Shown here: in pieces, positions 31,255 through 61,185 of the stretch | Layout: each line of letters starts with the position of its first letter | Numbering within the stretch: position 1 is the stretch's first letter | Source of the DNA: Taibaiella lutea | GTDB lineage: Bacteria; Bacteroidota; Bacteroidia; Chitinophagales; Chitinophagaceae | Direction: 5' to 3' | DNA: 64,000 nucleotides | NCBI RefSeq assembly: GCF_008629695.1 | Contig: NZ_VWSH01000003.1 | Location: forward strand, 371,688-435,687 | The notes under the pieces: generated by a model | What the model was told of the DNA's origin: nothing | Databases searched by the model: none | The model's input: the letters and a program-made list of their open reading frames with translations, nothing else | Program-made: the position numbers and the translations under genes

Positions 31255-31268
31255 TAAAAATGTAATTG

Positions 31269-31415
31269 CATTTGCCACAAATGGAAACTCATTTGTTGCA
31301 GACGCATTACTATTTGCTTTAAATCGAACTTCATTTGACACACATGGAAACTCGTTTGCCACAGATGCATAATAATTTGCCATTAATCGTTATTCATTTG
31401 TTACCGGTGTATTAA
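31269..31415 (-). repeat. seven-unit 21-bp degenerate tandem array A
   Basis: Seven consecutive units of exactly 21 bases, starting at 31269, 31290, 31311, 31332, 31353, 31374 and 31395. Most begin CATTTG and several contain CCACAnATG. Read on the minus strand the frame is open and gives heptads such as VANEFPC, VSNEVRF and ATNEFPF. The array at 59267-59413 has the same period, copy number and reading-frame logic. No start, leader or conserved continuation suggests a real protein. Confidence 0.8.
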
Positions 31416-33700: not shown

Positions 33701-33725
33701 CATTGAATAGAAATCAGCAATTCAG

Positions 33726-33749
33726 CTATTCACTATTCACTATTCACTA
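33726..33749. repeat. short tandem CTATTCA repeat before nusA
   Basis: Three and a third copies of the 7-mer CTATTCA in the 56-base rimP-nusA spacer, ending seven bases before the nusA start codon. Similar ATTCACTA words occur near dcd (57460-57475 and 58110-58135). Confidence 0.7.
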
Positions 33750-58736: not shown

Positions 58737-59153
58737 TTAGAAACGTTCTGTCATGCTAAAGAAGAAATCGCCTTCTATTTTAGCATTCTCATCGCTATCA
58801 GAACCGTGTACAGCGTTTTCGCCGATTGATTTTGCAAATTGTTTGCGGATAGTTCCTTCTGCAGCTTCAGCAGGATTCGTTGCTCCGATTAAAGTACGGA
58901 AATCAGCTACTGCATTGTCTTTTTCTAAAATGGCAGCAACAATCGGGCCACTGCTCATGAAATCAACCAACTCGCCATAGAAAGGACGTGCGCTGTGAAC
59001 TTCATAGAATTTACCTGCTTGCTCTTTGCTCAATTGAGTATATTTCATTGCGATGATTTTGAAACCACCTGCATTGATTTTATCTAAGATACCGCCAATA
59101 TAGTTGGAACCAACGGCATCAGGTTTAATCATCGTGAATGTTCTGTTAGACAT
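58737..59153 (-). CDS. ndk: nucleoside diphosphate kinase
   Basis: 138 residues. The catalytic histidine is H116 in [14 protein letters not shown], with the N-terminal [11 protein letters not shown] and [15 protein letters not shown] blocks of the family. It transfers the gamma-phosphate between nucleoside triphosphates and diphosphates through phosphohistidine. Standard length and single gene. Promoter TACCTTTG at 59193-59186. Confidence 0.96.
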
Positions 59154-59193: not shown

Positions 59194-59266
59194 ATAATTA
59201 ATTTCCTTTTCTTTCGGTCAAACGTTTAATTATTTGTAAAGGCGATCATTCTCCTTTTCTACCATT

Positions 59267-59413
59267 GATGCAGGAGTCCATTCACTCGACGCAATGGTCC
59301 ATTCACCCGTTGCAGAAGTCTATTCACTCGATGCACAGGTCCATTCACCCGATGCAAAGGGTAATTCACTCGTGACTTAAGGCAACTCACTCGAGACTCA
59401 GGATCACTTACCC
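59267..59413 (-). repeat. seven-unit 21-bp degenerate tandem array B
   Basis: Seven units of exactly 21 bases, beginning at 59267, 59288, 59309, 59330, 59351, 59372 and 59393; typical unit start GATGCA and end ATTCACTC or ATTCACCC. It fills the ndk-nadE spacer (59154-59502), which otherwise holds only the ndk promoter. On the minus strand the frame gives heptads ASSEWTP, ATGEWTI, ASGEWTC, interrupted once by a TAG where the others have TGG. It parallels array A at 31269-31415. Confidence 0.85.
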
Positions 59414-59502
59414 GGAGCACAGAACAAACATACGAGATTCAATACCGACTATATAGAAAGGGCAATATTACAATCTGAGATTATGGATTGATAAATGTAA
59501 AT

Positions 59503-61185
59503 TTATCCCAGGTATTTGGCTACAATAGGAATTCTCCGCCCTACCCCAAATGCTTTGGGAGAAATACGGATGATGGGACAAAACTGGTTACGTTTGTATT
59601 CATTCATATTCACCATGCGTAAAATACGGCTTACCATTGCTTCTTCAAAACCCATTTTTACAATGGCCGGCGTACTTTGCCGGTGTTCAATATACTGATA
59701 CAATACTGCATCGAGATCTTCATAGGGAGGCAAACTGTCGCTGTCTTTCTGATCCGGCCTTAATTCGGCCGATGGCGCTTTATCAATGATATTTACCGGA
59801 ATAATTTCTTTGTCTTTATTGATATACCGGGCCAAAGCATAAACCTGCATTTTATACAAATCGCCCAATACACCCAAACCACCGGCCATATCGCCGTAAA
59901 GCGTGCCGTAACCTGTAGCCAATTCGCTTTTGTTGGAAGTATTAAGCAGAATATAGCCGAACTTATTGCTCAACGCCATAGCCAGCAAACCCCTTATCCT
60001 CGACTGTATATTCTCTTCTGCAATATTGAATGGCAAATCTTTGAAAATAGGTTTCAATGCCCCTTCAACCTGCCCGAAAATATCTTTGATAGGAACAATA
60101 TCATAAGGGTTATTCAGATTGCGCGAAAGGGCTTCGGCGTCAGATACAGAATGCCCCGTTGAATATTGGGACGGCAATAACAAAGCATGTACATTTTCAG
60201 CACCAAGTGCAGCACAAGCCAAAGCCAGTGTTACTGCGCTGTCAATACCGCCCGAAGAGGCTACAATGGCTCTTTTGAAACCCATCTTTTCAAAATATTC
60301 TCTGATTCCCATTACCAGGGCGTCGTATATTCTGCCGATATTCAGTTCAGGTTGAAATGTGGAAGGATTCAATGTTTCAGCAGGTAAAGCAGAAAAATCT
60401 CTTATAACAGATTCTTCAAAACCTCCGCTACCGTTTAGCGTAACATAAGAAAGTTCTTCTTTAAAAGAAGCCATTTCTTTCACGACATTGCCTTTACTAT
60501 CTGCAACAAGCGACCCTCCGTCAAAAACAATTTCTGTTTGCGAACCAACTGTATTGCAATAAATAATGGGTAATTTATATCGCTGAACATTCTTATTGAT
60601 AATAGCCAGCCTGTCTTCGGCATGTGTATAATCAAAAGGGGAAGCACTCAGGTTAATCATTATTTCAGGTTGCTGTTGCATCAGCATATCCATAGGCTGC
60701 AGGCGATACATTGCATTCTCTTCCACATCCCATATATCTTCACAAATGGTAACGGCCAGCTTTCTTCCTTTAAATTCAACTATATTCCAATCGAAGGCAG
60801 GTTCAAAATAACGGTATTCGTCAAAAACATCGTAGTTGGGCAGCAGCGTTTTATGAACAATTTGTTTTATTTCTTTTTCATAAAGAAAATAAGCGCTGTT
60901 AAATAAATCCTTTCCCTCCACCCGTTCATTTACCGAAGGTGCACCTACCAGAACTCCGATGGTGTCAGCCTCTGCAGCAATCAACCGGATGGATTGATTA
61001 CAGCGTTCGATAAAGTCTGTAAACTCCAGAAAATCCCTTGGCGGATAACCGCAAACAGCCAGTTCACTAAACACAATCAAATCGCCGCCTTTGGCTTTGG
61101 CTGCTTTAATTGCATCAATAATCTTTTGAGTGTTGGCTTCAAAATTGCCTATATGATAATTCTGTTGCGCTATATATATCTTCAC
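59503..61185 (-). CDS. nadE: glutamine-dependent NAD+ synthase
   Basis: 560 residues. The N-terminal nitrilase-type amidotransferase domain (about 1-270) has the Glu in FSELAVCGYPPRDFLE, the Lys in KTLLPNYDVFDEYRYF and the Cys in VTICEDIWDVEENA. The C-terminal synthetase domain carries the PP-loop SSGGIDSAVTLALA and NTSNKSELATGYGTLYGDMA. It makes NAD+ from deamido-NAD using glutamine as ammonia source. Likely a single-gene transcript. Together with nadB it covers two ends of NAD synthesis. Confidence 0.95.
   Translation of the reverse strand: MKIYIAQQNYHIGNFEANTQKIIDAIKAAKAKGGDLIVFSELAVCGYPPRDFLEFTDFIERCNQSIRLIAAEADTIGVLVGAPSVNERVEGKDLFNSAYFLYEKEIKQIVHKTLLPNYDVFDEYRYFEPAFDWNIVEFKGRKLAVTICEDIWDVEENAMYRLQPMDMLMQQQPEIMINLSASPFDYTHAEDRLAIINKNVQRYKLPIIYCNTVGSQTEIVFDGGSLVADSKGNVVKEMASFKEELSYVTLNGSGGFEESVIRDFSALPAETLNPSTFQPELNIGRIYDALVMGIREYFEKMGFKRAIVASSGGIDSAVTLALACAALGAENVHALLLPSQYSTGHSVSDAEALSRNLNNPYDIVPIKDIFGQVEGALKPIFKDLPFNIAEENIQSRIRGLLAMALSNKFGYILLNTSNKSELATGYGTLYGDMAGGLGVLGDLYKMQVYALARYINKDKEIIPVNIIDKAPSAELRPDQKDSDSLPPYEDLDAVLYQYIEHRQSTPAIVKMGFEEAMVSRILRMVNMNEYKRNQFCPIIRISPKAFGVGRRIPIVAKYLG

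Follow-up and report, generated by a model that had tools for sequence, protein, structure and literature searches.

A dispersed family of 21-bp intergenic minisatellites in Taibaiella lutea

The gap between the ndk and nadE genes of Taibaiella lutea holds a short tandem array of 21-bp units, array B (Table 1), and the locus raises the question of what kind of element this is and why a second array, array A, in the window (the whole stretch of 64,000 nucleotides that was analysed) has the same period. Alignment of the array B units to the consensus GATGCAAAGGTCCATTCACTC confirms the seven indel-free units reported in the initial annotation, with 33 substitutions in 147 bp (~78% identity) and no insertion or deletion, and ragged partial units on both sides stretch the array to approximately 59260-59425. 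The identity of array B at lag 21 (0.72) is the maximum of the window, for which the mean is 0.281 (sd 0.051), and array A is the second-best place at 0.58. The array starts 114 bp upstream of the ndk start, and the end of nadE lies 90 bp from it. By the sequence of nadE, the nearest named relatives are Taibaiella-like Chitinophagaceae at 73% identity. As the units are contiguous and head-to-tail with no unique spacers, a CRISPR array is excluded. The reading favoured here, at a probability of roughly 0.7, is that array B represents one of several scattered copies of a lineage-specific, non-coding minisatellite whose monomer is exactly 21 bp long, which would have grown by slippage and recombination, in some cases probably from heptamers, and which is probably neutral or selfish.

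Table 1. Positions of the arrays and genes discussed in the text
Feature	Position	Strand	Remarks
Array A	31264..31415	+	21-bp family of its own; unit palindromic (CATTTGnnnCAAATG); sibling array at C1:902945-903221
Heptamer array ATTCACT x4	33720..33749	+	Holds TTCACT, which is also conserved as the core of the B unit; may represent the ancestral type
ndk (nucleoside diphosphate kinase)	58737..59153	-	Pfam PF00334
Array B left end	59253..59266	+	TTTTCTACCATT, then GATGCAGGAG; common to the C1:1003277 array (TTTTACCATTGATGCAGGAG)
Array B	59267..59413	+	Seven 21-bp units; core TTCACYCG; one of six loci with the TTCACYCG core in the genome
Array B degenerate partial eighth unit	59414..59425	+	
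nadE (glutamine-dependent NAD synthetase)	59503..61185	-	Pfam PF02540 and PF00795
Orphan gene pair	L077:8407-9153, L089:9043-9744	both -	77% amino acid identity; no Pfam match

Array B has several relatives elsewhere in the genome. The core TTCACYCG recurs every 21 bp at five further loci (C1:1003277, C2:529475, C3:23848, C3:347012 and C4:255936), and a search of the genome with this pattern returns 68 matches against 0 with the reversed control. At two more arrays, C4:597k and L058 8043, a derived TGTGCAAC core replaces TTCACTC, which brings the B family to six loci with the TTCACYCG core and to eight when the derived core is included. The suggested membership of B in an interspersed family is thus borne out, and the genome scan that had been proposed as a check for other copies did find them. 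The arrays at C1:1003k and C4:597k mix units of both types, with the odd ones at the array ends, which indicates that one type drifted into the other at constant length. Furthermore, the left end of array B and that of the C1:1003k array have ACCATTGATGCAGGAG in common, which suggests that an array end was copied as a whole. Two B-family arrays adjoin two paralogous genes of unassigned function that are the sole copies in the genome (the orphan pair in Table 1), so that at least one array copy probably spread by segmental duplication. The arrays just upstream of these L077 and L089 genes differ partly in unit sequence.

The six to eight loci with same-core arrays, the common left end of B and C1:1003k and the transitional units that join two families would all be expected if one founder array had spread by a mobile or duplicative mechanism, in which case the common 21-bp period would be a matter of inheritance. 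The term "mobile minisatellite" used in the initial annotation holds as far as the dispersal of copies, two of them with a common left end, is concerned, but neither a mobility gene nor a target duplication or an empty site was demonstrated, and inspection by eye of eight array boundaries revealed no apparent terminal inverted repeats, target duplication or transposase. Founder spread is also at odds with the lack of any match to array B in the plasmid and phage collections, with the one array pair that accompanies a duplicated neighbouring gene instead, and with the similarity across families, which is barely above chance (mean z 0.7 over 28 pairs, a value raised by one related pair). As the origin of the common period it is considered rather unlikely. 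An origin in a phage or plasmid is rejected for want of a match in those collections, the two viral contigs that fit the pattern having short in-frame repeats of a different sequence.

The kinship of array A with array B is a separate matter. The two arrays had been suggested to be members of one family, and by sequence comparison their similarity is borderline and does not establish kinship: the best match between their profiles, over all registers and both strands, has an uncorrected p of 0.04 (5000 shuffles; z ~2), and the arrays have the same period with different sets of relatives, the sibling of A listed in Table 1 being a strong one. The heptad pattern common to A and B, which had been taken as a sign of kinship, arises because any 21-bp period is read as seven codons.

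The same arithmetic bears on the possibility that the arrays are decayed coding modules of heptad-repeat proteins. The minus-strand heptads of array B (ASSEWTP, ATGEWTI and ASGEWTC) are present as first described, including the unit that contains TAG (GTTGCAGAAGTCTATTCACTC, reverse strand GAA TAG), and former coding modules were one of the origins suggested for them. A unit of 21 bp does equal seven codons, several frames are free of stops in some arrays, and the C3:24k array shares its frame with the gene that follows; open frames, however, are expected anyway from a period divisible by three, codon-position bias is absent in every array tested (all p above 0.15), six arrays including A carry stops in all six frames, and no gene built of such heptads was met. 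Decayed coding sequence is consequently regarded as highly improbable. In the C3:24k array (L087:8872-9945, plus strand), one frame reads as a coiled-coil-like RVNRLEE repeat and continues stop-free into a gene with a signal-peptide-like start. Long spurious reading frames of this type arise because the period is a multiple of three, and the RVNRLEE frame is possibly the seed of a new gene, or the product of chance.

A function as an RNA element is rejected, since no Rfam family matches at the arrays and the B-family units fold no better than shuffled sequences; only the units of A, L051 and L065 lean towards structure. Palindromic units capable of forming hairpins are seen in some families, as in array A (31269-31415) and in L065:8719-8951 (CACGAGGTnnnACCTCGTG). 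Promoter and terminator signals at array B do not rise above the shuffled expectation. Loss of mismatch repair as a cause of the arrays is rejected, MutS being present.

The period of 21 bp extends well beyond the B family. In a sample of spaced 20-kb stretches and the window (1.14 Mb, ~27% of the genome), from which stretches picked for holding an array were excluded, the period is exactly 21 in 11 of 19 strong arrays (TRF score >=100, period up to 60), and the others are scattered, with one or two each at periods 7, 8, 15, 26, 41, 43 and 44. Strong self-match loci in intergenic-like DNA number 16, 15 and 13 at lags 21, 42 and 63 and 10, 8 and 9 at lags 84, 105 and 126, compared with an average of 0.67 for lags not divisible by 7. 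Scaled from 1.14 Mb to 4.27 Mb, the counts (11 strong, 19 in all) give an estimate of ~40 to 70 arrays genome-wide. The 19 arrays examined are all located in intergenic gaps, be these divergent, tandem or convergent, and profile comparison resolves about nine groups without detectable kinship, about eight of them besides that of B. The 21-bp minisatellite superfamily is real and non-coding and, from the genomes compared, is apparently private to T. lutea. As the arrays are mostly of 21 bp and many have unrelated sequences, the puzzle that they pose is the fixed length of the minisatellite.

One explanation for this length is helical phase, with two turns of 10.5 bp imposing 21 bp either because the arrays serve as platforms for DNA-binding or architectural proteins or because only arrays that keep phase are tolerated between genes. 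That about eight or nine families with no detectable relationship have exactly the same period, with multiples up to 126, is consistent with such an effect, as are the arrays at 41, 43 and 44 bp, close to four turns, and the few or no indels found in most arrays, though these have 7-25% substitutions. Against it, unit sequences and G+C (0.18 to 0.56) have no feature in common, which argues that no single binding protein serves all arrays, and arrays are present in convergent gaps too, where promoter phase is irrelevant. Helical phase as the determinant of the period is judged distinctly unlikely. A sequence-independent constraint that sets the unit length at 21 bp in the T. lutea lineage is a less likely possibility and is put forward tentatively; it could, for example, arise because 21 is the smallest length that comprises both whole heptamer slippage steps (3 x 7) and whole helical turns (2 x 10.5). 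Two side observations concern individual arrays. L085:16186-16371 and L241:12190-12441 are arrays of 41-bp units of apparently related sequence on opposite strands, and RadC-family genes (L084:9748-10437 and L058:8231-8932) lie beside the ends of two arrays, which may be coincidence.

According to the preferred minisatellite reading, replication slippage and unequal recombination would expand and shrink the arrays, and in-register homology would hold the 21-bp length while the sequence drifts and homogenises within each array. Some arrays probably started as heptamer repeats (3 x 7), a type common in Chitinophagaceae. In addition to the ATTCACT array in Table 1, another member of the family has TTCACTC within a heptamer array, the B-related C3:24k unit has 10 of 21 self-matches at shift 7 (p=0.027, one of four units tested), and L061 is a 42-bp higher-order heptamer array. 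The unit of array B itself shows 4 of 21 self-matches at shift 7 against 4.6 expected; lacking a 7-bp sub-repeat, B is not filed as a heptamer repeat and only as a possible derivative of one. Pooled over 11 unit consensus sequences, matches at shift 7 amount to 57 against 63 expected, so that a general heptamer substructure of the 21-bp units is rejected as a pooled claim, and the absence of 7-bp sub-periodicity in most 21-bp families leaves a heptamer origin unsupported for those. For the B superfamily, descent from heptamer repeats is possible on the strength of these sequence resemblances. At L061:19254-19628, a duplicated piece that lies beside GTTGGTG/CACCAAC palindromes resembles, as judged by eye, the end of a REP-associated Y1 transposase.

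Relatives of T. lutea carry repeats of a different unit length. Lags of 7, 14, 21 and 28 dominate in three congeners and in 25 stretches sampled from the family and order, where simple heptamer arrays (GTATCAA, CTCACGT and AATAGTG, for example) give rise to them, and a TTCACYCG 21-bp array is absent from the 393 other family genomes searched. Three other genomes of 394 matched a three-unit pattern weakly (<=2 mismatches), two through single imperfect matches and one through a heptamer array. Given this dominance of 7-bp arrays among the relatives, the 21-bp unit without a 7-bp sub-repeat appears peculiar to the T. lutea genome within the sample. In another family member (G029), a 42-bp unit, double the 21-bp length, occurs in seven copies at L292:13559-13850. 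The G+C content is 39% in the T. lutea genome and 50-53% in the sampled stretches of the three congeners, yet ndk is 93-99% identical.

The arrays, probably neutral or selfish in themselves, would supply dispersed homology able to mediate rearrangements, and an apparent inversion at array B may be one example. In three congeners ndk sits next to a class-III aminotransferase gene in divergent orientation, and the space upstream of ndk is free of arrays. In T. lutea 84 kb separate these two genes, which are both encoded on the minus strand, and the gaps upstream of ndk and of the aminotransferase gene each hold a B-family array, in opposite orientations. If the segment between the two arrays is inverted, the two genes become neighbours again, with one further local inversion of the adjoining block needed for the other flank of ndk. 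It is likely, though not proven, that recombination between the two inverted arrays brought about this 84-kb inversion. Several other synteny breakpoints in the same 98 kb are without an array and array A sits within a conserved gene pair, so the link between arrays and inversion rests on one array pair.

Bacterial minisatellites and VNTR loci consist of tandem direct repeats with homogenised variant units, and their unit length normally varies between loci. The T. lutea arrays are alike in their tandem homogenised units and differ in that one unit length dominates the genome; they are thus known in kind, and their uniform unit length is unusual. No description of genome-wide 21-bp arrays was found among open-licence papers, which is weak evidence of novelty. 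Heptamers are the commonest type of intergenic tandem repeat in prokaryotes and offer no clear functional clue (Mori et al. 2018, PMC6344855), and Mrazek and others, as cited in MacGregor (2015, PMC4679880), proposed that 7 nt may be the DNA polymerase contact length that favours slippage. As far as they are described in these sources (Mrazek et al. 2007 cited in PMC4679880; PMC6344855), heptanucleotide repeats resemble the T. lutea arrays in being non-coding, intergenic and lineage-restricted with periods that are multiples of 7, whereas the T. lutea unit measures 21 bp, in most cases lacks a 7-bp sub-repeat, and occurs as several unrelated-looking families of the same period. The TAACTGA direct repeats of Beggiatoaceae, Cyanobacteria and some Bacteroidetes (PMC4679880) also form intergenic arrays of patchy distribution, and a role in gene rearrangement has been proposed for them in Bacteroidetes (MacGregor 2015, PMC4679880). 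Those repeats, however, are one fixed heptamer, often located by start codons, whereas the T. lutea arrays comprise many sequences of 21 bp in all kinds of gap.

The apparent inversion between inverted copies suggests that arrays of the kind represented by B shape gene order. A genome in which many arrays of no detectable relationship have units of exactly 21 bp, beside congeners with 7-bp arrays, provides a natural system for asking whether slippage step, recombination length or helical phase sets the unit length. If the length constraint is true, the arrays would lay open the mechanism that gives bacterial intergenic repeats their unexplained 7-bp periodicity.
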